From: Roseovarius confluentis
Lineage (GTDB): Bacteria; Pseudomonadota; Alphaproteobacteria; Rhodobacterales; Rhodobacteraceae
DNA: 64,000 nucleotides
Assembly: GCF_002917925.1 (NCBI RefSeq)
Contig: NZ_PPFE01000003.1
Location: 186,001 to 250,000, forward strand
Reading direction: 5' to 3'
The notes under the pieces were generated by a model. That model had not been told where the DNA came from. It saw only the letters and a program-made list of their open reading frames with translations, and did no database searches. The translations under genes and the position numbers were made by a program. Below are positions 12,477 through 31,040 of the stretch, in pieces (the stretch's first letter is position 1; every line of letters starts with the position of its first letter).

Positions 12477-12610
12477 ACTAACTTTCCCCGGCGAGAAAAC
12501 GATTTGCACCTTGGGGACCCCGACCGGAACTTGCATGGCAAATGCGGATCGTGTCAATGTCCGCTTCGATTTTTAACGAAAACGGTGCGGTGCGCACCGA
12601 TGCAGGAACG
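12477..12610. promoter_or_regulatory. Divergent promoter region between the RHS-STAND and SLOG-SLATT-patatin units
   Basis: These 134 bases separate the two halves of the island and must contain promoters for both directions. On the minus strand a TTGACA box (12552-12557) is a candidate -35 for the RHS gene, but no good -10 lies at the right spacing. No convincing inverted repeat was recognised. The shared region suggests that the two transcripts are co-regulated. Confidence 0.45.
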
Positions 12611-16049: not shown

Positions 16050-16092
16050 AGCGATTGGAAGTCAAAGTCTGCCCAAAGGTGTCTCTTCATAA

Positions 16093-16426
16093 GGGACTTT
16101 TGCATTCATCCGGAGAGTGTAAGTAAAAGATCCGGTGTCACCAGAAGTTATGCCGCGGCGTTGAAGAGGCCGTCGATGAAGGCAATTTCGCTCATGACGC
16201 CTGGTTGCTTGTGATGGGCCCTTTGCATTGACCGTGATACCTCGCTCCGCAAGCATATCCCATATGTCCCGGTACGAAAACGGGTAGCGGCAGTACCAGC
16301 GCACCGCCCGCAGGACGACCTCGCGCAGAAACCTGTGCCGCTCGAACGGGTTACGCCGGATCATCGCTCCCTCCTTAGCTAGGGTAGAGAGTTCTCTGAT
16401 GTCCCAACGGTTGATGCAACGGCCCC
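16093..16426 (-). mobile_element. Internally deleted IS6-family element (copy A)
   Basis: A 334-bp relic with both ends recognisable. The left end G-G-G-A-C-T-T-T-T-G-C-A (16093-16104) and the inverted right end (16415-16426) match at 9 of 12 positions and resemble the terminal repeats of IS6/IS26-type elements (GGCACTGTTGCA). IS6 elements are usually near 0.8 kb, so more than half is gone. A matching left end in the same orientation lies at 32473, bracketing the catabolic island. Target-site duplication was not identified. Confidence 0.75.
16148..16364 (-). pseudogene. IS6-family transposase remnant (copy A)
   Basis: Starting with ATG at 16364 after an AAGGAGGG ribosome binding site, the frame reads the typical IS6 N-terminus: N-P-F-E-R-H-R-F, then A-V-R-W-Y-C-R-Y-P and S-Y-R-D-I-W-D-M-L-A-E-R-G-I. 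It then loses homology after about 42 residues. In another frame the C-terminal end of the transposase, F-I-D-G-L-F-N-A-A-A and stop, is found at 16148-16180. The whole DDE core is deleted, so the gene is inactive. Confidence 0.8.
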
Positions 16427-16642
16427 GCCTCATACGAAGCGAACGTGAATAAATCACGGCCTTGATTGCCCAATGTTTGAAAATCGCTAAGCGTGCCGGG
16501 AATTTCGGCAATACTGCCGAAGAATTAACACGTTGGCTTTGCCATTAAAGTACTTTTATATCATATGTTTATGAGGTGAAAATCTAACGCTGCCCAGCCA
16601 CTCTAGCTCTCCCGCTAAAGGGTGCCTCTATACTTGTCGAAT

Positions 16643-17431
16643 TCATGCGGTTCTGATTGCAAAGCCCAAATCCAGAACGCCTTCACCCATGGGCAAATAG
16701 AAATCCTGGTAATATATCGCCTCGCCAATCAGTGGGAATGACAGCACGTTCAGCACCGGAGAGATACCTCCGGCTGGAATGCCACAGCTCTGTGCTACGT
16801 GATCCGGAGTCGGCACAAAACTGAGTCGTTGGCGGACCTTTTGGGTCGGCGATTTGTATTTCGCCGCTATCAGTTTTTTGAAGTTGAGCCCATTCAACTT
16901 GTCCTGCGGCAATTCGAGAAACTCGGGGAATCTAGAAGTCAACGCGTAGAATTCCGAATAAACATTGATCCCGCCGCTTAGAGCGAAAATGCGGTCTATT
17001 TTTGTCACGCTACCGCCGGTCTCGCCTAGCTCTTCATTCCAAGGCCCCTGCTCGAAAATTTCTTTGCGCGATACGATCCGAGTGTGCAGTTCAAGATATT
17101 TGTCCGGGCTGTCCTGAGAGGCGACGTAGCGTATGTGCCATGGATCTGAGAGTCGACCATCGAGATCGACGACGACCGAACCGCTACCTCGACGGCGGTC
17201 GATAAGACCGTCGCTTGATAAACCGCGCAAAGCTCGCTGCACGGTGCCGAGACTGCACGGGGTATAACGCGCCAGTTCGGCCTCGGTAGGTAACCTCATG
17301 CCGGTCAGCCAAAAGCCTTCTGCAATGGCCAGAGTAAAGGCTTGTTTCAACCGCTCATGCTTGGGCTGATTGCTGTCATCGTTCCAGTATCGGTCAATGA
17401 AGTCTTCAGTATCATTTGGTTTCGATCGCAA
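16643..17431 (-). CDS. GntR family regulator (UTRA/HutC type), module 1
   Basis: A 262-residue regulator. Residues ~20-95 form the GntR winged helix, with L-P-T-E-A-E-L-A-R-Y and S-L-G-T-V-Q-R-A-L-R-G-L in the recognition helix and a wing with R-R-G-S-G-S. The C-terminal ~160 residues follow the UTRA ligand-binding fold (a chorismate-lyase-like fold that binds small effectors). It is divergent from TRAP module 1 across 145 bp and is its probable regulator. It is clearly related to the second GntR at 24738, sharing the S-L-G-T-x-Q-x-A-L-R-x-L and S-R-F-P-x-x-L patterns, so the two modules may have arisen by duplication. Confidence 0.88.
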   Translation of the reverse strand: MRSKPNDTEDFIDRYWNDDSNQPKHERLKQAFTLAIAEGFWLTGMRLPTEAELARYTPCSLGTVQRALRGLSSDGLIDRRRGSGSVVVDLDGRLSDPWHIRYVASQDSPDKYLELHTRIVSRKEIFEQGPWNEELGETGGSVTKIDRIFALSGGINVYSEFYALTSRFPEFLELPQDKLNGLNFKKLIAAKYKSPTQKVRQRLSFVPTPDHVAQSCGIPAGGISPVLNVLSFPLIGEAIYYQDFYLPMGEGVLDLGFAIRTA

Positions 17432-17576
17432 AAATGTCCCTTTCTTCAGTGGGTTGGATGAATCTCATCAAATTATGACAGAGAAACATTGACCAGGCAA
17501 GATTACTATGATGTTTTTACTATATAGCGCTTTCCTGAAAACTGGATGGCTGCATTAATTTCTGGGAGGAGAAATC

Positions 17577-18578
17577 ATGCTTAATAACTGGATCACTGCA
17601 GCGGCTACAGCTGCCGCAATTGCGGCGTGCGGCAGTGCCGTGTCGGCGTCGGAACGACTTTCCCTGTCCACCTGGGGCAGTCCGAAGCACTATCAGGTCG
17701 AACAATTCGTTCCCAAGTTCGAGGAACTGCTTGACGAAAAATCCGGCGGTGAATTTCGTCTTAAGACATTCGAGGCCGGCGAGATGCTGAAACAGCAATT
17801 TGTGGCCACGGCAATTCCGCAGGGGACAATGGATATCTCCCTGACCACTCTCGACAACTGGTCGGGCCGGATCTCGGACGTGGGCATCCTGACGACACCG
17901 CTGTGGGATCACTCGATGGAGTGGACGTTGGAGAACCTGAAGCCGGGCATGCCGGTCTTCGAGTACTTCAACGATCAACTGAAGGACGAGGGTGCTGTTC
18001 TTCTGGCTATGTTCGATATCGGCGCGCCGGTGGTCAGCACCAATTTCGCCATCGATGGGCCGGAAGCTCTAGAGGGTCGCTCGATCCGGGCCTATTCGAA
18101 GGGGTCTGCGGAACTTCTGCAATCCCTGGGTGCCGTGCCGACGATCTTGGGGGTAGGCGAGATTTATTCAGCTTTGCAGCGCGGTACGGTCGAGGGTGCA
18201 ATGGGCGGCCTTGGCGGTGCCGTTGGACTGAAGCACTACGAGGTGACGTCGAACATGTTTGTACCGAATGGCGTCATGGGCACCCTGATCCACGCCTACG
18301 TCATGAACCGCGATAAGTTTGAGTCCATGTCGCCCGAGAACCAGGAAATCGTGATGGAAGCGGCGACTGAGGCGCGCGACCACATGCAGCAATACGCGAT
18401 CGACGCGCTGGCGGATCTGCTGGACGAGGTGCGTGAGAACGGCAACGAAGTCACGGTCGTCGAGCCGGATAGCGAGATGTGGAACGCTTTCGCGGCACAG
18501 CTTGAATCACTGACGGACAAGGCGAAAGAGACCTATTCTCCCGAAGTGCAGGCAGTCGTTTCCGGCGCGGCAAACTGA
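17577..18578 (+). CDS. TRAP transporter substrate-binding protein (DctP family), module 1
   Basis: A 333-residue periplasmic binding protein with a signal peptide cleaved near residue 24 (S-A-V-S-A-S). The DctP pattern is present: V-P-K-F-E-E-L-L near 47, the G-T-M-D-I-S-L segment near 82, and R-S-I-R-A-Y followed by G-E-I-Y-S-A-L-Q-R-G-T-V-E-G-A near 200, where the conserved Arg normally binds a substrate carboxylate. A strong GGGAGGAG ribosome binding site precedes the ATG. It is the first gene of a dctPQM-AcnX operon. The ligand is unknown, most probably an organic acid. Confidence 0.92.
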   Translation: MLNNWITAAATAAAIAACGSAVSASERLSLSTWGSPKHYQVEQFVPKFEELLDEKSGGEFRLKTFEAGEMLKQQFVATAIPQGTMDISLTTLDNWSGRISDVGILTTPLWDHSMEWTLENLKPGMPVFEYFNDQLKDEGAVLLAMFDIGAPVVSTNFAIDGPEALEGRSIRAYSKGSAELLQSLGAVPTILGVGEIYSALQRGTVEGAMGGLGGAVGLKHYEVTSNMFVPNGVMGTLIHAYVMNRDKFESMSPENQEIVMEAATEARDHMQQYAIDALADLLDEVRENGNEVTVVEPDSEMWNAFAAQLESLTDKAKETYSPEVQAVVSGAAN

Positions 18579-18586
18579 ATACGCAA

Positions 18587-18609
18587 GGCGGGCTGCAGGG
18601 CGGCCCGCC
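18587..18609 (+). promoter_or_regulatory. Intercistronic hairpin between dctP and dctQ
   Basis: A GC-rich stem (GGCGGGC at 18587-18593 pairing with GCCCGCC at 18603-18609, 9-base loop) lies directly after the binding-protein stop codon. Such hairpins after the binding-protein gene usually protect the upstream mRNA or partly terminate, giving more binding protein than permease. A T-rich stretch follows about 30 bases later, so it is a partial terminator at most. Confidence 0.6.
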
Positions 18610-18662
18610 AACCCATCACCCAAGAATTTTACCCTTTTTGCGACCTTGCGGAGGTAAGGCCC

Positions 18663-19151
18663 ATGATAAGACTCGCCCAGATGATCGGCTTAGGCATGAC
18701 CTATGTCTCGCTGGCCCTGATGATATTGCTCAGCGTTCCAATTGCCTATGAAGCAATCGCGCGCGCCTTTGGCGCTCCAACGATTTGGGTCTTCGAAACC
18801 ACGCTCTACGCATTCATTTTCCTTGGTTTCATGGGAAATGCGTTGGCAGTGAAGTCCGGTGCGCATTTTCGCGTCACTCTGCTTAAAGACGCAATGCCGC
18901 ATCGTGCATGGCTCTTTAATCTGATCGCGGATCTTTCGACTTTGGCCTTTGCGCTGCTGATTATCGCCGCTGGAGCCTACTTCGTCGCCGACCTAGTCAA
19001 AAACGAAGTCGTCTCGGCCTCGCTTTTGGAGGTTCCGCTGTGGATTCCCGCGCTTGCGATCCCGCTCGGAGGCTTCGGTCTCTTCCTGCAAACTTTGGTG
19101 AAGGTCATGCAAGGCGACGGCGATCTCGACCTGCATCTGTCGGGGGACTGA
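18663..19151 (+). CDS. TRAP transporter small permease (DctQ family), module 1
   Basis: A 162-residue membrane protein with four hydrophobic segments (about 5-28, 46-66, 83-108 and 123-145), the DctQ topology. A typical element is F-L-G-F-M-G-N-A-L-A-V-K-S-G-A-H-F-R-V after the second segment, where DctQ proteins carry a basic, histidine-containing motif. It precedes dctM by 3 bp. It forms the membrane complex with DctM and accepts ligand from DctP. Confidence 0.9.
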   Translation: MIRLAQMIGLGMTYVSLALMILLSVPIAYEAIARAFGAPTIWVFETTLYAFIFLGFMGNALAVKSGAHFRVTLLKDAMPHRAWLFNLIADLSTLAFALLIIAAGAYFVADLVKNEVVSASLLEVPLWIPALAIPLGGFGLFLQTLVKVMQGDGDLDLHLSGD

Positions 19152-19154
19152 ACA

Positions 19155-20450
19155 ATGCTTCAAGACTTCTTTTACGATTATGCCGGCTATATAGCGATCT
19201 TCCTGCTGTTCTCTTGCATGCTGCTGACCATCCCGGTCTTTGTGTCTATGGGGTTGGCGGCATTTGGCGCAGCCTTGCTGATTGAAGACCCGTTCCTGGC
19301 TTTCAAAACGCTGATCAACACGGCGTGGCAGGGGGCGTCGATCTTCGAACTCATTGCTCTGCCGCTGTTCATCTTTACCGGGACGATCATGCAGAGAACT
19401 GACGCAGGGCGCGACTTGTTCGAGGTGACGAAGGCCTGGGCCGGGTCGATCCCGAACTCGCTGGGCGTGGCGACGATCATCGCCTGCGGTATCTTCGCTG
19501 CAATCTCCGGCTCTTCCGTGGCAACTGCAGCCACCGTCGGACTGGTCGCCATACCGCTCTTGATCGAGGAGAAATATGGTGAGGCCCGCGCCGGCGGTTT
19601 CGTTGCCGGAGGCGGCACATTGGGCATCATTATCCCGCCGTCGATCCCGCTGATCCTTTACGGTGTTATCACCGAGACCTCGATCGGTCAGCTGTTCATC
19701 GGCGGCGTGATCCCCGGCATGATCATGATGACGCTGTTCATGGCCTACGTGTTCCTGTCGCGTCCCTCGGTTCGCATTGTGCACGACATTCCGTTCGAGG
19801 AACGAGTGAAGACGACCTTCAGTTCGCTGGGCGTGGTCATTCTGCCCGTGGTCATCATCGTGGCGATCTACACCGGCCTCTTCACCCCGACCGAGGTGGG
19901 CGCACTTAGCGTGATCTACGTGACCGTTCTGGGACTATTTCAGGGACGTCTGAACCTGAGAAAGCTCAAGGACGCGGCCTTGGCAGCTACCGCGACGACC
20001 TCGATGTTGTTCATGCTGATCGTCTTCGGCCAATACTTTGCGCACTTTCTGACGTTCGAACAGGTACCGCAATCGATAGCGTCGGCCATCATCGACAATG
20101 CAAGTGGTGTATGGGCGATTACTCTGATCATCCTGGCCTACATCGTTCTGGGCATGTTTCTAGAGAGCGCGGCGATGCTGCTTATCTCCATCCCGATCTT
20201 TTTTCCGGTCGCGATGGAGCTGGGCATGGACCCGGTAGCTTTCGGTATCTTTGCTGCCATTGCGATGGAGATCGCGCAGATATCGCCACCGATCGGCGTC
20301 AATCTTTTCACGATCCACGGCATTTCGAAGATCAACCTGTGGAAGCTGGCACGCGGTGCATTTCCGTTTCTCCTGATCCAGGTCGCGATGCTCTACCTCG
20401 TCTATTTTTTCCCGGAGGTTGTCACCTGGTTGCCGGGGCAGATGAAATAA
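19155..20450 (+). CDS. TRAP transporter large permease (DctM family), module 1
   Basis: A 431-residue polytopic protein with ~11-12 hydrophobic segments. Signature stretches include A-A-I-S-G-S-S-V-A-T-A-A-T-V-G (~114-128) and G-G-G-T-L-G-I-I-I-P-P-S-I-P-L-I-L-Y-G (~151-169), which is the substrate- and sodium-binding hairpin region of DctM. A matching second half with Q-I-S-P-P-I-G-V-N-L-F follows near 375-385. It catalyses sodium-driven import. It lies between dctQ (3 bp) and the aconitase-X large-subunit gene (25 bp), so the imported substrate is probably handled by that enzyme. Confidence 0.93.
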   Translation: MLQDFFYDYAGYIAIFLLFSCMLLTIPVFVSMGLAAFGAALLIEDPFLAFKTLINTAWQGASIFELIALPLFIFTGTIMQRTDAGRDLFEVTKAWAGSIPNSLGVATIIACGIFAAISGSSVATAATVGLVAIPLLIEEKYGEARAGGFVAGGGTLGIIIPPSIPLILYGVITETSIGQLFIGGVIPGMIMMTLFMAYVFLSRPSVRIVHDIPFEERVKTTFSSLGVVILPVVIIVAIYTGLFTPTEVGALSVIYVTVLGLFQGRLNLRKLKDAALAATATTSMLFMLIVFGQYFAHFLTFEQVPQSIASAIIDNASGVWAITLIILAYIVLGMFLESAAMLLISIPIFFPVAMELGMDPVAFGIFAAIAMEIAQISPPIGVNLFTIHGISKINLWKLARGAFPFLLIQVAMLYLVYFFPEVVTWLPGQMK

Positions 20451-20475
20451 CAAACAGAACTAAAGGAGTGCAGTG

Positions 20476-21702
20476 ATGCGCCTAACAGACGAAGAACAGG
20501 CCATGTTGGCCGGGGAGATGGGAAAGGCCCAGCAGTGGGCTATTGACCATCAGATCAAGGTAGGCGGGATGTTCGATGCCAAAGATCTGGTTCCCGTCAG
20601 CCAAGCCCATATGATGGGCGACCCCGAAGCGGTCGGTGAGGCCGGGGCGGATTTCCTCGAGGGGCTGGCCCGAGACGGTGCCAAAGCGAAAATTCCGACG
20701 ATCACGGATCCGCGCGGCGTCGACCTGAGCTATTACGAGCCAATGGGTCAGACCGAAGAGATGGCCAGCCTTGAGCGCCGGATCATCGGTGCGCTGGAAA
20801 AGATGGGCGTGATGATGACCAACACGTGCATCAACTACCAGACGATCATGCCGCCGATCCGTGGCGATCACGTCGCCTTTGGCGATACTGGAGTGGTGAT
20901 CTATGCCAATTCTGCCTGCGGAGCCCGGTCAAACTTCGAGGGCGGTCCTTCGGCGCTGGCCGCCGGCCTTACGGGTCGCACACCGCGCTACGGTCTACAC
21001 CTCGATGAAAAGCGCCAAGCGACGCGCCGTCTGCGCGTCAGCGAACAGCCAAAGGGGCTGACCGATTGGGGTATCCTTGGCGCGGTCGCAGGCAAAACCG
21101 TCGGTTCCTACTGGGAAGTGCCGGTGATCGAGGGATTGGAAGTCGTGCCGACCTCGGACGAGATGAAGCACCTTGGCGCGGCGATGGCCAGCTATGGTTC
21201 AACTCCACTATTCCACTTGGCTGGGATAACGCCGGAGGCACCGACCCTTGAAGCGGTCGGCGGAGAAAAACTTACAACCGAGGTTCTGGACGCCGATGCC
21301 ATGAACGCGATGCGCTCGCGCTTTGGAGGCAAGGGTGACAAGCTGGACGTGGTGGTATTCGCGGCACCGCAGCTGTCGCTCGTCGAGATGGAGCAGGTGG
21401 CCTCGCTTTGCAACGGCAAGAAGATGAAGGTTCCGCTGTTCGCTTGCGCCGCTCCGCAGGTCTATCCTGACGCACAGCGCATGGGCTTCGTGGAAAAGAT
21501 TGAGAACGCGGGCGGCAAGGTTCTTGTCGGCACATGTTTCTACAACGGTTTCGCGCGCGAAGTGGGCGAGGCCAATGGCTGGAAGCGGCTGTTGAGTAAC
21601 TCGGCCAAGATCGTGAACATTCTGGGCGGCTACGGCTACGAGCCGGCGCTCGCAAGCATGGAAGATTGCGTATCTTCCGCAATCGCAGGGGAGATCGTCT
21701 AA
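20476..21702 (+). CDS. Aconitase X, catalytic (large) subunit
   Basis: A 408-residue member of the AcnX catalytic family (DUF521). The N-terminus L-T-D-E-E-Q-A-M-L-A-G-E-M-G is characteristic. Conserved cysteines that can hold the iron-sulfur cluster are seen at 118 (N-T-C-I-N-Y) and 148 (S-A-C-G-A-R-S-N-F-E-G-G-P), with further Cys in F-A-C-A-A-P and G-T-C-F-Y. AcnX enzymes are hydro-lyases: the split bacterial form includes cis-3-hydroxy-L-proline dehydratases, and archaeal forms dehydrate phosphomevalonate. The ATG at 20476 has an AAGGAG site 7 bases upstream; a GTG lies one codon before. It is cotranscribed with TRAP module 1 and with the swivel subunit, whose start overlaps its stop. No pyrroline-2-carboxylate reductase is nearby, so the hydroxyproline role is only one option. 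Confidence 0.88.
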   Translation: MRLTDEEQAMLAGEMGKAQQWAIDHQIKVGGMFDAKDLVPVSQAHMMGDPEAVGEAGADFLEGLARDGAKAKIPTITDPRGVDLSYYEPMGQTEEMASLERRIIGALEKMGVMMTNTCINYQTIMPPIRGDHVAFGDTGVVIYANSACGARSNFEGGPSALAAGLTGRTPRYGLHLDEKRQATRRLRVSEQPKGLTDWGILGAVAGKTVGSYWEVPVIEGLEVVPTSDEMKHLGAAMASYGSTPLFHLAGITPEAPTLEAVGGEKLTTEVLDADAMNAMRSRFGGKGDKLDVVVFAAPQLSLVEMEQVASLCNGKKMKVPLFACAAPQVYPDAQRMGFVEKIENAGGKVLVGTCFYNGFAREVGEANGWKRLLSNSAKIVNILGGYGYEPALASMEDCVSSAIAGEIV

Positions 21703-22115
21703 TGATCGTGCTGAATTGCCATAAGGGTATCGGAGAGAGCGTGCAGGGCGAGGCGCTTGTTGCAAAGGATAATTTCTCGGCGCGCTATGATCTGGATAGG
21801 ATCAAGGGTGTTTTCTCGCGGCCGGACCACGCGCTTGCCGGGCAGAGCTATGACGGCAAAATCCTTGTCATGAACACGTCGAAGGGCGGCGTCGCCTCGG
21901 CCTGGATGCTGCACGAGATGAAGGCCCGAGGGGTCACGCCCAAGGCGATCCTGTTCAACACCGCCAACACGATCCTCGCTCAGGGCGCGGCGCTGGCCGG
22001 GTTGACCATGTGTGACCGGTTCGAGAGAGGCGACGTCACGGATTTGATTCAGAACGGTGATGTGCTGGAAATTGATCCCGAGGCCGGAACGGTGACGATT
22101 ACCAACAGGGATTGA
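21702..22115 (+). CDS. Aconitase X, swivel (small) subunit
   Basis: A 137-residue DUF126-type swivel domain. The hallmark is a strand and turn with I-L-V-M-N-T-S-K-G-G-V-A-S-A-W (~52-66), whose Ser residues are conserved in AcnX and bind substrate. The segment I-L-F-N-T-A-N-T-I-L-A-Q-G near 80 is also typical. The start codon shares one base with the stop of the large-subunit gene (TAATG), a sign of translational coupling and 1:1 assembly. In fused AcnX proteins this domain is joined to the catalytic part; here the enzyme is split. Confidence 0.88.
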   Translation: MIVLNCHKGIGESVQGEALVAKDNFSARYDLDRIKGVFSRPDHALAGQSYDGKILVMNTSKGGVASAWMLHEMKARGVTPKAILFNTANTILAQGAALAGLTMCDRFERGDVTDLIQNGDVLEIDPEAGTVTITNRD

Positions 22116-22324
22116 ATTCTCCCGACACCCGTGGCTGGGGAATCCGAAGTGACATCACGTTACGTTTCGGTCCTCGCCACGGGATTGTTTCTGGCCGGCG
22201 AATAGCATCCGTCGCGGTGAGATGGGGCGGATATGCCTCGGTTGTATTCCGAGTCGTTCAGACATCTCGAAACGCCACGCTCGAACCGTGGCCGACAGAC
22301 CTTTGAGGTCCGACGATTGACCCT
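22116..22324. other. Intergenic region before the SulP gene
   Basis: No gene is supported here. A 64-codon open frame at 22112-22306 lacks a ribosome binding site and resembles no family. The 209-bp gap suggests that the SulP gene has its own promoter or a long leader rather than tight coupling with the AcnX genes. No terminator-like stem with a T-run was recognised. Confidence 0.4.
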
Positions 22325-24073
22325 ATGAAGAGACTTTCCGTTCTACCCGCTGTGGAGTGGCTGCGTGCCAGCACTCGGTCTACTGTAAAGTCCGACATTC
22401 TGGCCGGGCTCACCAATGCGGCGATTGTTCTGCCGCAGGGCGTGGCCTTTGCCACGATTGCCGGGCTGCCGCCGGAATACGGACTTTATACTGCGATGGT
22501 GACCGCAGTTGTCGCGGCTCTATTCGGGTCTTCAATGGTGATGGTCTCGGGCCCGACGACCGCGATTTCCGCGCTGTTGTTCGCGACGCTGGACGGAATG
22601 GCAGAACCAGGCAGTGCGCGGTTCGTAGAACTCGCCCTGCTGCTGACCCTGCTCGTCGGAATCTTCCAAATCATGGCCGGTCTGGCGAGGCTCGGCGGGC
22701 TAGTGTCCTTCGTGTCTCATTCCGTGATCGTTGCTTTCACTGCCGCCGCTGCACTTTTGATCGGCGTGAGTCAGCTTGCGGGTGCTCTGGGCGTGTCGAT
22801 CCAGAGTGGCGGCAACGTCGTCGAGCGGCTGGTGCGCTTGGCCGAGTCGACGCACGAGATGAACATTGTGGCGTTGTTGATTTCCGGCGCGACCTTCGTG
22901 ACGGTCGCCGTTTTCCAGACTTTTCTGCCGCGCGCGCCAGGGTTCCTTATCGCGCTGTTTGTGGGTGCCGGTCTGGCTGCGACGATAGGTGCCGAGGAAA
23001 AGGGGGTCGAGATGCTGTCGGCAATCCCCGCTGCGCTGCCGAGTTTTTCGGCGCCGCATATCACTTGGGCGGACGTGGTGCTGCTGGCGCCCGGTGCCGC
23101 GGCCGTGGCGCTGGTAGGCTTGCTTGAGGCCATCTCGATAGGACGCACCTTTGCACTACGGCGGAGAGAGAGCTTCGCTCCGAACCAGGAGATCGTGGCG
23201 CAGGGACTGTCAAACACTGTTGGAAGCCTATTCCAGTGCTATGCGGGGTCGGGTTCCTTCACGCGTTCGGGTGTGAATGCGGAGGCCGGAGCGAAAACGC
23301 CGCTGTCGGCGATATCAGCGAGCCTGTTTTTGGCAGCAATCCTCGTAGCTTTCGGAGGCTACATGACGGTCATTCCGAAACCGGCGATGTCAGGTTTGAT
23401 CCTGTATGTCGCGTGGCGGTTGATAGATCGCAAGGAGGTCCGCCATATCGTAACGAAATCACGGCCCGAAGCGGTAATCCTGGTGTTGACGCTGGCTTCG
23501 GGGCTGTTCCTGGAACTGGATTATGCGATCTATGTCGGAGTCATCGCTTCGCTTTCGGTGTTTATTTACGAGAGCGCGCATCCTTCGCTTCTGGTCAGCG
23601 CGCCGGTTGAGGCGGCCAACGGGCGCAGGAAGTTTCGAAATGCGGTTTTGCTGGGGTTGCCTGAATGCCCTCAGGTCGTGACCGTCCGGCTGGACGGTCC
23701 TCTTTATTTCGGATCGGTCGAGCATGTTAAGGCTGAGTGGAAAGCCATTCGCACACAACGCCCGGAGCAGAAGCACGTCATTTTTTACTTGAAGGGGGTC
23801 GGCAAGATAGACCTAGCAGGGGCGGATTTTCTGATACACGCGATCCGTGATACCCGCGGCCAGGGCGGTACGTTCCATATAGTTGCAATGTTTCCGCCCT
23901 TATTGGAATGCCTGCGTCGCTTTCACGTTATCGAGGAGATCGGCGAGGACCATCTACATATTTCCAAGGGGGATGCCCTGTCATCGGTTATAGTAGAGAT
24001 ATCTCCGTCAATCTGTGCTGTCTGCACCAAGCGGGTGTTTTCGGAATGTGACTACCTCCCGGGCGCAGAGTGA
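22325..24073 (+). CDS. SulP family inorganic/organic anion transporter with STAS domain
   Basis: A 582-residue SLC26/SulP protein. The membrane part (~25-420) starts with the typical D-I-L-A-G-L-T-N-A-A-I-V-L-P-Q-G-V-A-F and G-L-P-P-E-Y-G-L-Y motifs. The C-terminal STAS domain (~445-560) includes V-T-V-R-L-D-G-P-L-Y-F-G and the switch-type D-L-A-G-A-D-F-L. The last ~25 residues hold three cysteines (C-A-V-C near 565 and F-S-E-C), an unusual short tail. SulP proteins carry sulfate, bicarbonate or dicarboxylates. Its position after AcnX suggests import or export of a related anion, perhaps sulfate or bicarbonate released or needed during catabolism; this is inference. Confidence 0.9.
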   Translation: MKRLSVLPAVEWLRASTRSTVKSDILAGLTNAAIVLPQGVAFATIAGLPPEYGLYTAMVTAVVAALFGSSMVMVSGPTTAISALLFATLDGMAEPGSARFVELALLLTLLVGIFQIMAGLARLGGLVSFVSHSVIVAFTAAAALLIGVSQLAGALGVSIQSGGNVVERLVRLAESTHEMNIVALLISGATFVTVAVFQTFLPRAPGFLIALFVGAGLAATIGAEEKGVEMLSAIPAALPSFSAPHITWADVVLLAPGAAAVALVGLLEAISIGRTFALRRRESFAPNQEIVAQGLSNTVGSLFQCYAGSGSFTRSGVNAEAGAKTPLSAISASLFLAAILVAFGGYMTVIPKPAMSGLILYVAWRLIDRKEVRHIVTKSRPEAVILVLTLASGLFLELDYAIYVGVIASLSVFIYESAHPSLLVSAPVEAANGRRKFRNAVLLGLPECPQVVTVRLDGPLYFGSVEHVKAEWKAIRTQRPEQKHVIFYLKGVGKIDLAGADFLIHAIRDTRGQGGTFHIVAMFPPLLECLRRFHVIEEIGEDHLHISKGDALSSVIVEISPSICAVCTKRVFSECDYLPGAE

Positions 24074-24737
24074 ACTGTCACTGGGGAGTGAAAGAACTTG
24101 GGGGGCGCATGAAGGTGAAATCTCTCCGGATCAAGCCATGCCAAGTTCACGCTGTGCTGAACCCCAAAGCTCTCCACCGTCGCCGCTAAATCACCTTCTG
24201 CCGGATCGTGCGACGCCGGAAATGCAAAAGCTATAGGCCGAACTTGGAGCGCGTCACTCGTTTCGGGAGGCCGCTCTTATTATGGCGCAACTGCCCTTTG
24301 TCGCGCGACAGTGCTGTCTTGATACCTGGAAGCTGATCGCGGAATTCTTCACGTACGTTCCAGTGCACGCAGGCCGGACGTGCCTTCATCAGTCCTGCGC
24401 GCGCGATGCCGAAGGTAGGCGGAGCGCACCAAAGGCAAGATCCGAGTCAGATCGTAAAGTTATATATAGGTATCAAGGGAGGCTGGCCGATTCGCTCTGG
24501 TATATTCTCTGAAATTACGAATTTTCGTCTATTTAAGCTACATCAAGGAGCTTTTTCGAGGGGGGGCGTGGCCGGAGTTTGTCAGTTTGCACGCACGAGT
24601 ATCGCTTTAAAAAATTGCATATAACTTAAATTCTGCACAAATTTTGCCAGGCTTTGAGTTGGAAGGTGGTCGAAACCTATAAGAGTTTTGTGGGAATCGA
24701 ATAATACTATATAGAAGAAGGAAAAGGAGACGATCGT
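24074..24737. other. 664-bp intergenic region between modules 1 and 2
   Basis: No supported gene. A 76-codon frame (24282-24512) matches nothing recognised and has no ribosome binding site. The last 250 bp are AT-rich compared with the surroundings and must contain the promoter of the second GntR gene. It may be an old junction where two catabolic modules were joined. Confidence 0.45.
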
Positions 24738-25499
24738 ATGCAGGAAGCTGAAGTGCGGGGGCGTCGCAAGGCCAAGTATAAACTGGCAAGTGAAATCCTT
24801 CTTGATCAGATCGAAAAAGGAGATCTGCGGCCGGGCGATCAGCTTCCGTCCGAAGGTCAGCTGGTGGCGCAGCTTGGATACAGTCTCGGTACTATACAGC
24901 ACGCGTTGAGGCATTTGTCGGCAATGGGTGCCGTAGTGCGCGTGCATGGGTCCGGAACCTTCGTGTCTGGCGTCCGTCCTCCGGATGAACATCTGCGTCA
25001 CTTCCGATTCAGGTCGGAAGAAAATGGCGACCTGTTGCCGGTTTTCTTCGAAACCGAGAGCATCGAGCACACAGAGGCGCAAGGCCCGTGGTCCCGTTTT
25101 CTGCAGAGCGAGTCAAAAGGATACGTCAAAATCCAGAGGCTGATAAGCGTCAACCGTGAGTTTGAAATTTTCAGTGAGCTTTACCTGCCTGCCTCGCGGT
25201 TTCCTGATCTTCTGGCGATGGAGCCGTCAGATCTCGATGGGGTCTCAGTGCGCGACTTGCTTGCCGACAAGCTGAATACGCCCACGGTGCATACTGAGCA
25301 AACGATGCTTTGCGGCACATTTCCCCCAAGGGTCACACGACGGATCAACATGCCTTTCGGTGTGACCGGTCTGACTCTGACGATCCGCAGCGAAACGTTT
25401 CGTCAGACGCCAGTTATCTGGCAGCGCGCCTTTGTTCCCCCGAGCGACCGAGAGATGGAATTTCTAGACACCGCGCCCAACCCGGCGCGGCGGAAGTAA
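24738..25499 (+). CDS. GntR family regulator (UTRA/HutC type), module 2
   Basis: A 253-residue regulator. The winged helix (~12-80) shows G-D-L-R-P-G-D-Q-L-P-S-E-G-Q-L-V-A-Q-L-G and S-L-G-T-I-Q-H-A-L-R-H-L, then a wing with V-H-G-S-G-T-F-V. The remaining ~170 residues are a UTRA effector-binding domain. An AAGGAGA sequence precedes the ATG. It reads in the same direction as TRAP module 2, 61 bp upstream of it, unlike the divergent GntR of module 1. Sequence patterns shared with that protein suggest they are paralogues that may respond to related effectors. Confidence 0.9.
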   Translation: MQEAEVRGRRKAKYKLASEILLDQIEKGDLRPGDQLPSEGQLVAQLGYSLGTIQHALRHLSAMGAVVRVHGSGTFVSGVRPPDEHLRHFRFRSEENGDLLPVFFETESIEHTEAQGPWSRFLQSESKGYVKIQRLISVNREFEIFSELYLPASRFPDLLAMEPSDLDGVSVRDLLADKLNTPTVHTEQTMLCGTFPPRVTRRINMPFGVTGLTLTIRSETFRQTPVIWQRAFVPPSDREMEFLDTAPNPARRK

Positions 25500-25560
25500 C
25501 CGCCGTGGACAAGGCGGGATTGAATAAAAGAAACGAATGTACACAACAGGGAGCTTTCCA

Positions 25561-26604
25561 ATGTACTATCCTCCTCAAGAACGCCATCCCGCAGCATTGC
25601 GCACTTTCCGCCAGATGATCCGATCTGCCGTGGCGGTGGTCGCGACGAGCCTTGCGCTGAACGGTCCGGCCATAGCTGCCGACTTCCCGGAAATGACACT
25701 TAAGTTCGGCCATCCCTACAACGAGACGCATCCTCTGGCGCAGGGCGCTCAGCGTTTTGCCGATACGGTACAAGAGCGTAGCAATGGCAACATTACCGTT
25801 CAGGTGTTCCCGAATTCGACCATCGGGTCGTCCAAGGAGTTGGTCGAGGCGATGCGCGTCAACGTGGTAGACATCGCGCTGGTGCCGACGACCAACGTCG
25901 CCAGCTTCTACCCCAAACTCGACGTGTTTTATCTGCCCTTTGTGTTCCGCGATCGCGAGCATGCCTATGCTGTGTCGGACGGCGAGGTCGGCCAATCCAT
26001 GTTCGAGGACATGAGAGAGAAGATCGGCATTCGAACCCTTGCCATGTACGAAAGCGGGTTTCGTACAATCACCACGCGCGACACCAAGGTCGAAGCACCT
26101 GAAGATATGCAGGGCATCAAGTTTCGTGTGATCAACAACCCGCTAAACGTCGCGACGTTCGATGCACTGGGCGCGAATTCAACCCCGATGCCGATATCGG
26201 AGGTTTTCACCGGCCTTCAACAGGGCACCGTGGATGGTCAGGACAATCCCGTCGGCAATGTCCGCGCTTTCGGCTTTGACAAGGTGCAGGGCAACATCAC
26301 CCTTTCGAACCACCAGTGGGCCGGGATCATGTTCCTGATCAATGACGGCAAGTTTGCGGGCTTCGACGAAGCGACGCAGGAGCTGATCGCCAGCGTCGCC
26401 AAGGAGACCGAGGCCTGGGAGCGCGAAGAGATCAATCGTGTCGAGGGCGAGTTGCTTTCAGAAATGGAAGCGGACGGTATGGTCGTGACCCGTCTGACCC
26501 AAGAGCAGTCCCAAGCCTTTCAGGACAAGATGTCGGCTGTCTGGGAAGAGTACAGCGATCGCCTGGGCCAAGACCTGATCGACGCTGTGGTGAACGCAGA
26601 GTAA
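25561..26604 (+). CDS. TRAP transporter substrate-binding protein (DctP family), module 2
   Basis: A 347-residue periplasmic binding protein. The mature part begins near D-F-P-E-M-T-L-K-F-G-H after an export signal ending A-I-A-A. DctP landmarks are K-E-L-V-E-A-M-R-V-N-V-V-D-I-A-L near 94, the substrate-binding Arg in G-I-K-F-R-V near 185 and E-V-F-T-G-L-Q-Q-G-T-V-D-G-Q-D-N-P near 212. The ATG at 25561 was chosen for an AGGGAG site 7 bases upstream; ATGs at 25537 and 25615 are alternatives, the last giving a more ordinary signal length. The ligand is probably a carboxylate; the protein is not a close copy of the module 1 binder. Confidence 0.9.
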   Translation: MYYPPQERHPAALRTFRQMIRSAVAVVATSLALNGPAIAADFPEMTLKFGHPYNETHPLAQGAQRFADTVQERSNGNITVQVFPNSTIGSSKELVEAMRVNVVDIALVPTTNVASFYPKLDVFYLPFVFRDREHAYAVSDGEVGQSMFEDMREKIGIRTLAMYESGFRTITTRDTKVEAPEDMQGIKFRVINNPLNVATFDALGANSTPMPISEVFTGLQQGTVDGQDNPVGNVRAFGFDKVQGNITLSNHQWAGIMFLINDGKFAGFDEATQELIASVAKETEAWEREEINRVEGELLSEMEADGMVVTRLTQEQSQAFQDKMSAVWEEYSDRLGQDLIDAVVNAE

Positions 26605-26643
26605 GCCGGTCCGCCGCTGGAAACACAGGAAGGATTGATTGAG

Positions 26644-27144
26644 ATGAGCGGTCTGAAAACTCTCATGGACTCGACTGAAAAACTTCTGGCGGCGGCCTGC
26701 GTCCTGGCCTTTGCGGTAATGCTGGGGCTGGGGGTGCTGACTGTGTGGTACCGGTTCGTCATTCAGGACTCGCTTTCTTTTCCTGACGAGCTGATCCGGT
26801 ATCTGTTCGTCTGGCTGGTCGCGTTGGGCACGGCCATCGGGTTGCGACGCAATATACACGCGGCCATCGGGGTGTTTGTGCAGCGCCTTCCGGCGCCCTT
26901 GATGCGCGGTGCACTTGTGTTCTCGTCGCTATGTGTGATCGGTTTCCTTGCGGTTGTTTTTTACACCGGCTGGCATGCGGCAGAGAGCGCCGCGAGCCAG
27001 ATATCACCGGCGATGCAGATCCCGCTGATCTGGCTTTTCGCCGCGGCCCCGGCAGGAGCGGCCTTCGGCATCCTGTTCACGCTCGAACAGCTTGTAAAAC
27101 AGGCAACCCTGCCCTTGGCCGACCTGTCGGCCGACGATCACTGA
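26644..27144 (+). CDS. TRAP transporter small permease (DctQ family), module 2
   Basis: A 166-residue four-TM protein. The DctQ motif follows the first membrane helix: W-Y-R-F-V and then F-P-D-E-L-I-R-Y-L-F-V-W-L-V, with a basic R-R-N-I-H-A-A-I loop after the second helix. An AGGAAGGA sequence lies upstream of the ATG at 26644; a TTG three codons earlier is open too. It is 39 bp after the binding-protein stop and 37 bp before dctM. Confidence 0.9.
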   Translation: MSGLKTLMDSTEKLLAAACVLAFAVMLGLGVLTVWYRFVIQDSLSFPDELIRYLFVWLVALGTAIGLRRNIHAAIGVFVQRLPAPLMRGALVFSSLCVIGFLAVVFYTGWHAAESAASQISPAMQIPLIWLFAAAPAGAAFGILFTLEQLVKQATLPLADLSADDH

Positions 27145-27181
27145 CGCCGTCCCGCGGACGATCCAGGTAAAGGACCAGATC

Positions 27182-28456
27182 ATGATTATCGCATCCATAT
27201 TCGTAACGCTGGTCGTGTTGATGGTGCTGCGGGTGCCGATCGCGGTGGCACTCGGTCTGGCGACCGTGGCGGGCCTTCTGGTCAGCGGCATCAACCTAGA
27301 GATCGTCGCGCTCAAGATCGTGGGATCGAACGACTCTTTCCCCTTGCTGGCGATTCCCTTCTTCATCCTTGCCGGCGAGGTCATGTCCACCGGGGGCATG
27401 TCGCGGAGGCTGGTGAATTTTGCGCAGTCGCTGGTCGGTCACATGAGCGGCGGGCTGGGCGCGGTAGCGATCTTGGCATCGAGCTTCTTTGCTGCGCTGT
27501 CGGGCTCGAACGCGGCTACGGTCGCGGCCATCGGGGGCGTAATGAACGACCCGATGACGGAGAAAGGCTATCGCCCTGCCTTCATCGCGGCAACGATTGC
27601 CGCAGCGGGCGTGACGGGGATGATTATTCCACCGTCGATCCTGCTGATCCTTTACGGTGTGGTCACGGGCGTATCGATTTCCGACCTGTTCCTGGCCGGA
27701 TTCCTGCCGGGGGTGCTGATCTGTATCAGCATGCTGATCCTGAACTACCTGATGACCAAGCGCGAACCGCAGATCGAGAAGGTTCCTTTCGAGGGCGGCG
27801 GGGCAGTGCTGGCGTCGTTCAAATCCGCCTTCTGGCCATTGATGATGCCGGTCATCATCCTGACCGGGATCTACGGCGGCGTTTTTACCCCGACCGAAGC
27901 CGCCATCGTGGCAGTGGCCTATGGGCTTGTCGTTGGCCTGGCCTTTCGCGAGCTGAAGGTGAAGGCGCTTTACAACGCGTTCTTCAAGGCGGTGCTGTCG
28001 TCGTCGGTCGTGATGTTCATCATGAACAGCGCGCATGTCTTTGCATGGTTGCTGACCATTAACCAGATCCCGCAGGGGATATCGCAGTACCTTGCGGAGA
28101 CCGCGAGCACACAAGTCATCTATATCCTGTTCGTCAATATCTTCCTGCTGGTGGTGGGTTGCATGATGAACGCCGCCGCGGCGATCGTGATATTTACCTC
28201 AATTCTTTACCCGGCTGCGATGACCTTCGGGATCGATCCGCTGGTGTTCGGCATCATCATGGTGGTGAACCTGTCCATCGGGACCGTCACGCCGCCGTTG
28301 GGTGTCGACCTTTTCATAGCCTCGGCGATAACCGACGTGAAGATCGAGGATATCGTCCGCAATGTCTGGCCATTCATTTTGGTGCTGACCTTCGACTTGA
28401 TGTTGATCAGCTATTACCCCCCCCTCTCGACCTTCCTTGTCGAGACCTTCGGCTAG
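27182..28456 (+). CDS. TRAP transporter large permease (DctM family), module 2
   Basis: A 424-residue DctM permease with ~12 hydrophobic segments. Hallmarks are F-F-A-A-L-S-G-S-N-A-A-T-V-A-A-I-G (~101-117), G-V-T-G-M-I-I-P-P-S-I-L-L-I-L-Y-G (~142-158), and the second-half motif G-T-V-T-P-P-L-G-V-D-L-F near 370. It imports the ligand of the module 2 binder by sodium symport. The DUF3604 gene follows after 48 bp on the same strand and is probably in the same operon. Confidence 0.93.
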   Translation: MIIASIFVTLVVLMVLRVPIAVALGLATVAGLLVSGINLEIVALKIVGSNDSFPLLAIPFFILAGEVMSTGGMSRRLVNFAQSLVGHMSGGLGAVAILASSFFAALSGSNAATVAAIGGVMNDPMTEKGYRPAFIAATIAAAGVTGMIIPPSILLILYGVVTGVSISDLFLAGFLPGVLICISMLILNYLMTKREPQIEKVPFEGGGAVLASFKSAFWPLMMPVIILTGIYGGVFTPTEAAIVAVAYGLVVGLAFRELKVKALYNAFFKAVLSSSVVMFIMNSAHVFAWLLTINQIPQGISQYLAETASTQVIYILFVNIFLLVVGCMMNAAAAIVIFTSILYPAAMTFGIDPLVFGIIMVVNLSIGTVTPPLGVDLFIASAITDVKIEDIVRNVWPFILVLTFDLMLISYYPPLSTFLVETFG

Positions 28457-28504
28457 ATCGACGCCTCCCAAGCTCAACAGAACAAAAAGCAAAGGACGTA
28501 ATCC

Positions 28505-30814
28505 ATGTCTGCGACTGACTCTGCCACACCCTGGACCGACATGAACAGCGGGGTCGTGCGCGACGCGATTCCCCTCGATCAGCTCGGCGCCGCGTCAATC
28601 ACACCTGACGGAGATTTCGAAGCAGGCTCCTACGCGTCCTTTACCCTGACTTACACGGCCGGGCTCTACGGTATCGACGACTCCGGCAGTCTGCGAATCT
28701 GTTTCCGGTTTGCATCGGACCAGAGCAATCCGCAGTTCGACGACCCGAAGGGGGCGAACTACACTGTGGTCGAGGCGTCGAATGGCGCTGTGCTGCAGGT
28801 CAGATGGGACCCCAAGGCCAATGTGCGTCCGTGGGACCGCACGCTCTGGATCAAGGTGGTCAAGGGGTACCTGACCGAAGGCGAAACCATTACCGTGCGG
28901 TTTGGTGTGACCGATCACGGTGGCCCGGGGATGCGGTTGCAGACATTCTGCGAGGACACGTTCGAGTTTCGCGTGTTGGCCGACCCGATCGCGACGTTCA
29001 ATTTCCAGCCTCTACCGGTGCAGCCGATGATCGCGATCGTGCCCGGTGCGCCGGAACGGTATGTCGCCGTGCTTCCGACCCGGCGGCGCGTGGGGCAGGC
29101 ATTTGCGTTGAAAATGAAGGGCGAGGATGCATGGGGCAACCCGTCCGACAAGTGCGATACGACGCTGACCATCGAGGCGGACGGCCAGATAGAAGGCCTG
29201 CCCGAAACGGTCAAAATGGCACGTGGCCAGCGGGCGACAGTGATCGACGGGCTGTCGGTAACAAATCCGGGCCGTGTTTCGGTCCGCCTGAAGGACGCGG
29301 AAGGCTCGGTGGTGGCCGAGACGAACCCCCTGCTGATCGAGGACACCGACCTGATCCATTTCTGGGGCGACATGCACGGCCAATCCGAGGAAACCATCGG
29401 CACGGGTTCGGCCGACCAGTATTTCAGCTTTGCCCGCGACTTGGCCTTTGTCGATGCCTGCGGGCATCAGGGCAACGACTTCCAGATCACGGATGCGTTC
29501 TGGTCTGAGCTTAATCGCCTAACCGCTACCTATGATCAGCCCGGCACCTACGTGGCGCTGCCGGGATACGAGTGGTCGGGGAACACGTCGCTCGGAGGGG
29601 ACCGCAACGTCTATTTTCCGACTGACAACCGGACGATCCGACGCTCGTCCCACGCCCTGATCGAGGGCGGCGACGTAAACGGTTCGGACGCACTTACCTG
29701 CGAAGCACTGTTCGCGGACCTTGCCGACGCCGGTGAGTGGGACGTGGTGATGTATGCCCATTGTGGCGGCCGTTACGCGGACATCTCTGTTGCGCATGAC
29801 GGGCGTTTCGAGCGGTCGGTCGAGGTGCATTCGTCGTGGGGTACGTTCGAGTGGATTCTGCATGACGCCTTCCGGCTGGGATATCGCGTGGGGGTCGTCA
29901 CCAATTCTGACGGACACAAAGGAAGGCCGGGCGCCTCTTATCCCGGTGCCGGCAAGTTTGGAGCGATTGGCGGGTTGTCCTGTTTTCTGATGGACAAACT
30001 GGACCGCGAGACTTTGTTGGACTGCCAGCGCAAGCGTCATCACTACGGAACGACAGGTGGCGCAAACGGGCGAATGATTGTGGATCTTGAAGGCCGATTC
30101 ACGGAAAATGGTCTGCTCTATCACGATGATCCATCGCTGTTTGAGAATGCTGAAGGGACCGTAGCGGATCGCGCGATGATGGGTGATATCGTGCACCTGC
30201 CTTCGGGCGAGATGGAACTGTTCGTTTCAATCGAAACAACGGCGCCAATTGAACGGGTCGACATCTTCAACGGTCTGGAACTCGCTGAGACGGTCCGGCC
30301 TTATGGCAAAGACGACCTAGGCCGTCGTATCCGGGTTCATTGGGAAGGGGCAGAGTATCGCGGGCGTTTCCGCGAGGTTATCTGGGATGGTTCAGCCGAT
30401 GTCTCCGGCAACGCGGTCACCGATGCAACGCCACTAAATTTCCTGAACCGGGACAAGTCATTGGGAGTCGATGGAAATAGCTTGTCCTGGAAGGCTCTGA
30501 CCACGGGGAACTACGGCGGATTTGACATATCGCTCGCCGACGAGGATTCGGGCAGCCTGAAGTTGCAGACGCCGCTGGTGTCCTTCGAACAGAAGATTGC
30601 CGAGATCGGATTGGAAGACACGATATATGACGTATCGGGCGAACTTCCGCGCTTCGTGAAAGTGTTCCGCCTGCCGGATGAAAGTTCCCACCGCGCGCTG
30701 AGCTTCGCCCGCAAGATCATGCTGAAAGACGATGGGGACAATCCAATCTATATCCGTCTCACGCAGGAAGACGGCACCCGTGCCTGGACCAGTCCAATCT
30801 ATGTTTACAGGTAG
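28505..30814 (+). CDS. DUF3604 protein (PHP-like metallohydrolase)
   Basis: A 769-residue DUF3604 protein. An N-terminal beta-rich part (~1-280, Ig-like, with the family opening G-S-L-R-I-C-F-R-F-A-S-D) precedes a PHP-like metal site: H-F-W-G-D-M-H-G-Q-S near 282-291, F-V-D-A-C-G-H-Q-G-N-D-F near 316, A-L-P-G-Y-E-W-S-G-N near 349, M-Y-A-H-C-G-G-R near 418 and N-S-D-G-H-K-G-R-P near 469. The His and Asp pattern implies two or three bound metals and a hydrolase. No signal peptide is visible, so it is probably cytoplasmic. The substrate is unknown; linkage to a TRAP importer suggests it acts on the imported molecule, for example as a lactonase or esterase (inference). Confidence 0.85.
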   Translation: MSATDSATPWTDMNSGVVRDAIPLDQLGAASITPDGDFEAGSYASFTLTYTAGLYGIDDSGSLRICFRFASDQSNPQFDDPKGANYTVVEASNGAVLQVRWDPKANVRPWDRTLWIKVVKGYLTEGETITVRFGVTDHGGPGMRLQTFCEDTFEFRVLADPIATFNFQPLPVQPMIAIVPGAPERYVAVLPTRRRVGQAFALKMKGEDAWGNPSDKCDTTLTIEADGQIEGLPETVKMARGQRATVIDGLSVTNPGRVSVRLKDAEGSVVAETNPLLIEDTDLIHFWGDMHGQSEETIGTGSADQYFSFARDLAFVDACGHQGNDFQITDAFWSELNRLTATYDQPGTYVALPGYEWSGNTSLGGDRNVYFPTDNRTIRRSSHALIEGGDVNGSDALTCEALFADLADAGEWDVVMYAHCGGRYADISVAHDGRFERSVEVHSSWGTFEWILHDAFRLGYRVGVVTNSDGHKGRPGASYPGAGKFGAIGGLSCFLMDKLDRETLLDCQRKRHHYGTTGGANGRMIVDLEGRFTENGLLYHDDPSLFENAEGTVADRAMMGDIVHLPSGEMELFVSIETTAPIERVDIFNGLELAETVRPYGKDDLGRRIRVHWEGAEYRGRFREVIWDGSADVSGNAVTDATPLNFLNRDKSLGVDGNSLSWKALTTGNYGGFDISLADEDSGSLKLQTPLVSFEQKIAEIGLEDTIYDVSGELPRFVKVFRLPDESSHRALSFARKIMLKDDGDNPIYIRLTQEDGTRAWTSPIYVYR

Positions 30815-31040
30815 TTGGCGGATTGCAGGTGAGATCGATGCCACAAGGCGCAGCAGACCGGAAGCAAGAAATCAGCCAAGTTTGGCGGCGGAAAATCTTG
30901 TCCAGCGTTCTCATCCCGCCTGCGAAGATCTGTGCATGGACATCGCATACCAAAAGTAAACGCAAACAGCCTGAAAGGTGCGGAGACTACAACGCAAAGC
31001 TTATTGTTTTGGCCAATGGCAAACTCCACGGGGCGCAATC
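30815..31040. other. Intergenic region between DUF3604 and MmgE/PrpD genes
   Basis: No supported gene in these 226 bases; small frames present in several phases lack a ribosome binding site. The gap is long enough for a separate promoter for the MmgE/PrpD gene. No hairpin with a T-run was recognised. Confidence 0.4.

Follow-up and report, generated by a model that had tools for sequence, protein, structure and literature searches.

A split aconitase X with a replaced active site, from a subclass yet to be characterised, in a TRAP transporter operon of Roseovarius confluentis

The window analysed here, 64,000 nucleotides of contig NZ_PPFE01000003.1 (positions 186,001 to 250,000) from the 4.46-Mb, 99.96% complete genome of Roseovarius confluentis, carries an operon at positions 17577-24073 that joins a tripartite ATP-independent periplasmic (TRAP) transporter, a split aconitase X (AcnX) and a SulP anion carrier. 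The explanation that we favour, and regard as likely, is a catabolic operon in which dedicated TRAP import feeds an organic acid to a split AcnX of an uncharacterised subclass. Because its catalytic site differs from those of characterised relatives, this AcnX probably breaks down an organic acid outside the known AcnX substrates; it is a new functional variant within a known enzyme family, not a new kind of enzyme. Pfam profiles confirmed the order GntR | dctPQM–AcnX-L–AcnX-S–SulP over 16643-24073, with a match for every gene that an initial annotation of the locus had named. DctP1, the solute-binding protein (17577..18578, plus strand; PF03480, 131.7 bits), DctQ1, the small permease (18663..19151, plus; PF04290, 74.6 bits), and DctM1, the large permease (19155..20450, plus; PF06808, 302.9 bits), fall within one operon and form a DctP-type TRAP transporter. 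The AcnX large subunit, with a GTG start (20473..21702, plus), follows DctM1 after 22 bp, in agreement with the annotation's description of the AcnX genes as directly downstream of dctPQM, and the small (swivel) subunit comes next (21702..22115, plus). The swivel reading frame was listed with a TTG start at 21666, and the ATG at 21702, which overlaps the large-subunit stop by one base, appears the likelier start. After a gap of 209 bp lies the SulP/SLC26 anion carrier (22325..24073, plus), assigned by Sulfate_transp (PF00916, 297.1 bits) together with a STAS domain, its score for TIGR00815 sulP (345 bits) being below the cut-off of 380.

The enzyme is an aconitase X by profile and predicted fold. 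The two subunits scored 397.5 and 83.0 bits against cut-offs of 31.5 and 27 (PF04412 and PF01989), and this is the one AcnX above cut-off in the whole genome, a second match of 22.6 bits falling below. The AlphaFold2 (AF2) model of the large subunit (pLDDT 92.5) was matched by Foldseek to the T. kodakarensis AcnX (7cnr; E 2.5e-40, TM 0.88), and in VIA the two aligned with Z 50.7 and a root-mean-square deviation (rmsd) of 1.8 over 383 residues at 35% identity. Aconitase, homoaconitase and isopropylmalate isomerase, which are Fe-S hydro-lyases, share the superfamily fold (VIA Z about 16-21 for most) but have only about 12-15% identity to the window enzyme and different cluster ligands. According to the accessible portions of the papers cited here and below, AcnX types I and IIa are cis-3-hydroxy-L-proline (C3LHyp) dehydratases and type IIb is phosphomevalonate dehydratase (PMC8184944, PMC10040528, PMC5144071); the function of types IIc-IIf is given as unknown (PMC10040528), and these types lack the landmark residues of both known activities (PMC8184944).

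The active site was compared across 134 AcnX large subunits, namely that of the window, an own-genome copy (L001, excluded from the counts), 31 of other types and the clade to which the window belongs. This clade of 102 is made up of the window, 80 loci kept of 84, five plasmid loci and 16 loci from genomes of the class; the swivel comparison had 126 rows, with a swivel subunit found for 95 of the 102 clade loci. Numbering follows the A. tumefaciens enzyme (AtAcnX) unless stated otherwise, and four clade rows end before Tyr534. The mapping to published AtAcnX positions could be checked because L140, a fused AcnX in a 4-hydroxyproline-epimerase cluster, carries Asp203, Cys273, Glu292, Ser293, Asn294, Ser449, Cys508, Cys510, Lys530 and Tyr534 of AtAcnX. 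The swivel serine that is the proposed general base, and that corresponds to Ser642 of mitochondrial aconitase, was kept by all 31 other AcnX and was glycine in 95/95 clade members; fused and split controls place the AtAcnX Ser70 equivalent at Gly75 of the window (reading frame numbered from 21666). The replacements in the large subunit were equally uniform: Glu292 (31/31 others) is Asp in 102/102 of the clade, Ser293 (31/31) is Thr in 102/102, Tyr534 (30/31) is Ile in 98/98, and the amine-binding Asp203 (21/31) is Met in 102/102. Trp35, present in 25/31 of the others, is Arg in 94/94 (Arg40 in the window), and Ser70, Cys71, Thr72 and Cys510 are likewise replaced. Cys273 was kept in all, Cys508 in 98/98 of the clade and 30/31 of the others, and Lys530 in 98/98 and 31/31. 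The window's large subunit has cluster cysteines Cys119 and Cys355 together with Lys379, and its clade-specific residues are Met48, Asp50, Glu52, Asp138-Thr139-Gly140 and Ile383.

These counts led us to reject both known assignments, since the replacement of active-site residues across the clade, the serine included, makes a C3LHyp or phosphomevalonate dehydratase very unlikely; that the window enzyme is neither can be held with high confidence from the alignments, where both substrate signatures are missing and the shared serine has been lost. Type IIb is the closest solved structure (T. kodakarensis 7CNR) and also has separate small and large subunits, but of its three cluster cysteines, Cys110, Cys283 and Cys342 in T. 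kodakarensis numbering, Cys283 is Ala in 102/102 clade members (Cys in 7/31 others), the Ser62 base is Gly in 95/95, the phosphate-site stretch differs, and the window enzyme sits in a bacterial transport operon. The C3LHyp dehydratases (A. tumefaciens 7CNP, P. aeruginosa LhpI) share the fold (VIA Z 37.5), with swivel plus catalytic parts, as well as Cys273, Cys508 and Lys530. That the window AcnX is one of them draws on LhpI being the single NCBIfam match of the large subunit and on genes of the OCD, Ldh_2 and proline-racemase families elsewhere in the genome. However, the LhpI match reached 205.4 bits against a cut-off of 700 (a split type IIa enzyme would probably also miss this cut-off, since the model covers the swivel and catalytic parts of a fused protein), and the window falls apart from the rows with the C3LHyp signature in the tree. 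The residue set that binds C3LHyp (PMC8184944) is replaced throughout the clade, the window lacking Ser70, Asp203, Trp35, Glu292, Ser293 and Tyr534 as well as Cys71, Thr72 and Cys510, and alanine mutants of Ser70, Cys71, Asp203, Cys510 and Tyr534 were almost inactive in AtAcnX (PMC8184944). We therefore consider a C3LHyp dehydratase highly improbable here, in line with the initial annotation, which had looked to a different hydroxy compound. No hydroxyproline genes were found among the annotated neighbours of the window AcnX. The annotation had argued from a reductase missing at the locus, and this argument was dropped: the genome carries two Ldh_2-family and four OCD-family genes at other places, and a gap at this one locus therefore says little. 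Nor does SulP stand in place of a reductase, as had been suggested; it is a recurrent partner, found in 6/102 clade loci. By description the window enzyme resembles types IIc-IIf of Watanabe et al. 2021, split bacterial AcnX without the landmark residues, a comparison that assigns it no letter; the accessible main text of that paper does not report the serine loss for these types.

In phylogenetic analysis by a quick method, 132/134 sequences passed a 330-residue filter and 131 rows remained after removal of L001. One branch (support 100, length 2.56) separated the 100 clade rows from the 31 other AcnX; some joins of non-clade rows may be false, as several of these rows are very long, and the split also rests on the residue counts. 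On this combined evidence, the window AcnX is placed in a monophyletic clade whose active site has been rewritten, within a six-row group (support 99) that includes Limibaculum, Maritimibacter, Pararhizobium and the NT-25/NT-26 plasmids. AcnX exceeded the cut-off in 40/385 sampled genomes of the class, and 43 of the 44 places were examined, giving 17 of the clade and 26 of other types. AcnX was present in just one of four further genomes from the window's family, and there it is of a different type, so the operon appears sporadic and perhaps acquired. Next to the divergent regulator gene GntR1, a 149-aa open reading frame (ORF; 16062-16511, minus) looks by eye like the N-terminal part of what we take to be an IS6-type transposase; it may be a relic at the border of an acquired island. 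In the arsenite oxidisers NT-26 (L083) and NT-25 (L142) the clade AcnX is on plasmids typed as conjugative; their large subunits are identical in the tree, and the surroundings are rearranged, being rich in insertion sequences in NT-25. A different AcnX lineage was seen in Paroceanicella (L139, 5001-6688), adjoining IlvD, an FAD oxidoreductase and a TRAP transporter; it retains the serine and the Glu, lacks the C3LHyp residue pattern, and may be another lineage of unknown function.

The distribution of DctP1 is the strongest evidence that the transporter (TRAP1) and AcnX serve one pathway. At E<=1e-40, DctP1 relatives occurred in 2/190 genomes of the class, its own included, and the other is 32% identical. 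DctP1 relatives of 59-75% identity, with DctQ and DctM, stand directly upstream of AcnX in four other loci (L004, L006, L076 and L077), and this recurrence of gene order argues that the arrangement is not due to chance. Relatives of the divergent GntR1 (16643..17431, minus; PF00392, 40 bits) adjoin AcnX in L004, L006, L031 and L077 at 45-54% identity. It is thus quite likely, from these comparisons, that TRAP1 imports the AcnX substrate or a precursor; the proposal that AcnX acts on the imported molecule gains from the almost exclusive occurrence of DctP1 at AcnX loci, and we infer the dehydration step. The ligand could not be taken from PDB neighbours, as the best of 78 matched sequences reached 71 bits, too distant for specificity. 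This best relative by E-value, 2vpn, is presumably the ectoine-binding TeaA, which would fit a cationic or zwitterionic hydroxy acid (hydroxyectoine, carnitine or another betaine) as the substrate, as would two clade-wide acids of the large subunit, Asp50 and Glu52, and the HODM-like, FMN-oxidoreductase and Rieske genes near some relatives. Such a substrate is nevertheless very unlikely, for 2vpn leads other TRAP proteins by about 2 bits (4p47, 69 bits), the amine-binding Asp203 is lost and an Arg is gained.

Genes within 7 kb of AcnX were tallied by tblastn with chosen queries in the 102 clade loci, 78 of which are at least 9 kb long. Carriers and regulators comprised TRAP (10), TTT (12), opp-type ABC (14), MatC (2) and GntR (11), and enzymes comprised Sdh-like (8), fumarase-like (6), aldehyde dehydrogenase (8), ThDP (5), E1 (4) and GMC (4) genes; MmgE/PrpD was found in 1/102, the window's own copy being farther away. 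The 31 other-type loci had TRAP 1, TTT 1, ABC 3, sulfatase 1, ThDP 1 and MmgE/PrpD 1 and none of the remaining families, and are a weak control because they span about 0.21 Mb against 1.24 Mb of clade sequence. The Sdh- and fumarase-like paralogues and the TTT, TRAP and MatC carriers near relatives, together with the new arginine, point to a substituted C4-type di- or tri-acid as the substrate, a proposal to which we give somewhat less than an even chance. Near several gammaproteobacterial clade AcnX (L053-L063, L081), a TauD-like dioxygenase, an aldo/keto reductase, or a protein combining guanylate-cyclase and 2Fe-2S domains was also observed.

Partners associated with sulfur formed a second group, with SulP near 6, TauE near 5 and a sulfatase near 8 of the 102 loci, and any of the three near 17. 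TauE lies directly before AcnX in L129 and L134 and before DUF3604 in L185, and L131 reads SdhB-like - TauE - DUF3604 - AcnX-L - AcnX-S - unassigned - ABC ATPase - fumarase. The sulfatase is a choline sulfatase relative with a C-[VI]-P-A-R motif and, by eye, without a signal peptide. Some of these partners are weak or broken: the SulP of L077 is 24-26% identical (both Pfam domains present), the sulfatases of L032 and L085 are fragments, and the sulfatase and TauE of L049 are about 29% identical to the queries. TauE has been described as a sulfite exporter in organosulfur catabolism in the accessible parts of two papers (PMC12421959, PMC5373536). Since anion exporters and sulfatases occur near relatives, some forms of the substrate may carry sulfur; an organosulfur substrate, from which sulfite or sulfate would be released and handled by SulP, TauE or a sulfatase, is a tentative reading with the odds against it. 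At genome level the sulfatase and clade AcnX shared 2 genomes, which was not significant (p 0.06).

The DUF3604 protein is a statistically supported partner of unknown function. Its relatives at E<=1e-60 were found in 16/190 genomes of the class. They occurred in 12/17 genomes with clade AcnX (G000, G011, G080, G087, G122, G195, G292, G303, G357, G366, G370 and G381, and not G109, G140, G200, G226 or G307) versus 4/22 with only other types (G034 in part, G178, G274 and G351; Fisher p 0.0013). Counted by family the ratio was 7/9 versus 2/17 (p 0.0016), and within the 190-genome sample 5/7 versus 11/183 (p 4e-5, with membership of G140 in the sample assumed). Of the 12 genomes whose sulfatase is at least 38% identical (4 weaker cases were set aside), 7 also carry DUF3604 (p 5e-6), and DUF3604 is near AcnX in the window, L003, L028, L125 and L131. 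A PHP-type metallohydrolase domain is predicted in the protein: in the AF2 model (pLDDT 83.3) a domain at about 283-520, between beta-sandwich domains, has a PHP-type fold, with VIA matches to 2anu (Z 18.2, 194 residues, rmsd 2.8), 3e38 (Z 17.1) and 7rty (Z 15.1). This match came from VIA and was absent from plain Foldseek, whose top 50 rows were mostly beta-sandwich proteins; the sequence had no match in the PDB. In the accessible text of the literature searched, DUF3604 was mentioned only in Chlamydia mutagenesis work, and no account of the mechanism of PsfC, a PHP relative, was recognised among the literature matches listed. The same genome has a second DUF3604 gene (G000:C12:135838-138018), 43% identical to that of the window.

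The unit reaches past 17577-24073 to GntR1 on one side and probably to a second operon (24738-32471) on the other. This operon consists, on the plus strand, of a GntR/UTRA regulator (GntR2, 24738..25499; PF00392, PF07702), a second TRAP solute-binding protein (DctP2, 25537..26604; PF03480, 289.5 bits), DctQ2 (26635..27144; PF04290), DctM2 (27182..28456), assigned because DctM-like reading frames of 13 loci are 28-41% identical to it, the DUF3604 protein (28505..30814; PF12228, 21.5 bits, cut-off 20.4) and an MmgE/PrpD-family protein (30978..32471; PF03972, 190.5 bits), whose nearest PDB sequences are IRG1 and IDS-epimerase. The two operons are linked by a shared 10-bp operator-like word, TACTATATAG, upstream of dctP1 (17518..17527, plus) and, as a second exact copy, upstream of GntR2 (24705..24714, plus). 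The window holds exactly these 2 copies versus 0.01 expected, and 0/100 shuffles held two; the exact 10-mer occurs at three places in the genome, two of them in the window. Any of six related words was present in nine AcnX loci among those then collected. The related word ATATAGCTCTAT precedes dctP and also AcnX in NT-26, related words lie near the GntR genes of L031, L036, L039, L042 and L069, and the stretches before dctP in L004, L006 and L077 are similar, not identical, to the word; none was recognised in L076. A palindrome scan found no perfect palindrome over the window's shared word, and promoter and terminator sites in the window were no more numerous than in shuffles.

We propose the following pathway. 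GntR proteins would bind TACTATATAG-like sites and co-control the AcnX operon and the GntR2-TRAP2-DUF3604-MmgE/PrpD operon, and TRAP1 (DctPQM1) would import the organic acid. In the heterodimer formed by the large and small subunits, Cys119 and Cys355 would hold an Fe-S cluster, and Asp138 and Lys379 would surround the water that leaves or is added. AcnX would dehydrate or hydrate the imported acid or a near product, its substrate being a beta-hydroxy acid or the matching unsaturated acid and something other than the customary serine acting as the base; Tyr41, Lys73 and His55 of the swivel, each invariant in the clade, are put forward by inference only as candidate replacement bases. Enzymes that differ between loci would then carry the product into central metabolism. 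Judged by its conserved residues, the window AcnX is very likely an active hydro-lyase. The most specific version, in which an alpha-, beta- and gammaproteobacterial AcnX lineage (SAR116-type included) lacking the serine base carries out a different elimination on a sulfo- or sulfated C4-type acid, within an organosulfur pathway not described before and together with DUF3604 and TauE or SulP, is rather unlikely in this full form. A description of the function of this AcnX subclass was not found in the literature searched, most subscription journals and all supplements being outside its reach; searches for AcnX with a TRAP transporter, or for TauE, DUF3604, organosulfate, TRAP, sulfatase and dehydratase in combination, gave no match, and a sulfosuccinate-type search found no text holding that word. 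The change from Ser to Gly at the aconitase-type serine in every member examined raises a mechanistic question, and the locus offers a testable handle on this AcnX lineage, with a nearly exclusive solute-binding protein and a possibly co-regulated second operon. If the organosulfur proposal is true, the marine carbon and sulfur cycles would gain a further pathway.

Several observations weigh against the proposed pathway. The neighbourhoods of the 102 clade loci are very diverse, with TRAP in only 10, and the SAR116 loci group shares a different, mostly unannotated neighbourhood. When 127/258 neighbour representatives were scanned by Pfam, no enzyme family had more than 4 members, and the window is without a sulfatase or TauE near AcnX. 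Poisson estimates for genes near clade AcnX (DctP1, 0.004 expected vs 5 seen; DUF3604, 0.03 vs 5; sulfatase, 0.05 vs 7 without L049, about 5 of them independent) were post hoc, assumed 3.6-Mb genomes and alphaproteobacterial frequencies, and treat loci that are not independent, and are to be read as orders of magnitude. Words like TACTATATAG are not rare genome-wide, since its 11-base form at one mismatch occurs at 8 places versus 10 for a reversed control. A NT-26 plasmid combines the AcnX with genes of glyoxylate metabolism, as detailed below. The clade also holds two of the three cluster cysteines of solved enzymes, and without the serine the enzyme could be inactive. On these last two grounds, the serine base lost in 95/95 and two cysteines left, the clade could have lost catalysis or taken on another role, such as sensing a metal or a metabolite. 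We regard this as very improbable, because the lysine, two cysteines and the Asp at the Fe-water ligand position are retained, an alignment of 42 large subunits has many invariant positions, the swivel subunit is so widely kept (95/102) and the neighbours are often catabolic; activity is also known for type IIa enzymes that potentially have just two cysteines, according to the accessible text of PMC8184944.

The NT-26 plasmid raises a further alternative, in which the acid made by AcnX, either 2-oxo or unsaturated, is split into glycolate and a C2 unit, so that the pathway yields glycolate or glyoxylate. One stretch of this Pseudorhizobium NT-26 plasmid holds TRAP, SulP, AcnX, malate synthase G, glycolate-oxidase-type genes and acetate-CoA ligase, and the heme-binding protein there is presumably GlcG. 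In NT-25, a dehydrogenase of the succinate-semialdehyde type comes after AcnX and glycolate oxidase genes are close by, and E1/lipoyl and ThDP enzymes adjoin some relatives. Among the loci then collected, however, NT-26 was the only one with malate synthase, GlcF was confined to the NT-26 and NT-25 plasmids, and neither was seen around the window AcnX, which leaves this alternative unlikely.

Elsewhere in the window, a 2083-aa ORF (4511-10762, minus) adjoins a 592-aa ORF (10779-12557, minus) that looks RHS/YD-repeat-like by eye. A pair of adjacent M16 peptidase genes lies at 32821-35504 (minus), and a protein with a Heparinase II/III C-terminal domain (PF07940) is encoded at 38301-40109 (minus), flanked by AICARFT/IMPCHase and RsmB/F-type genes.

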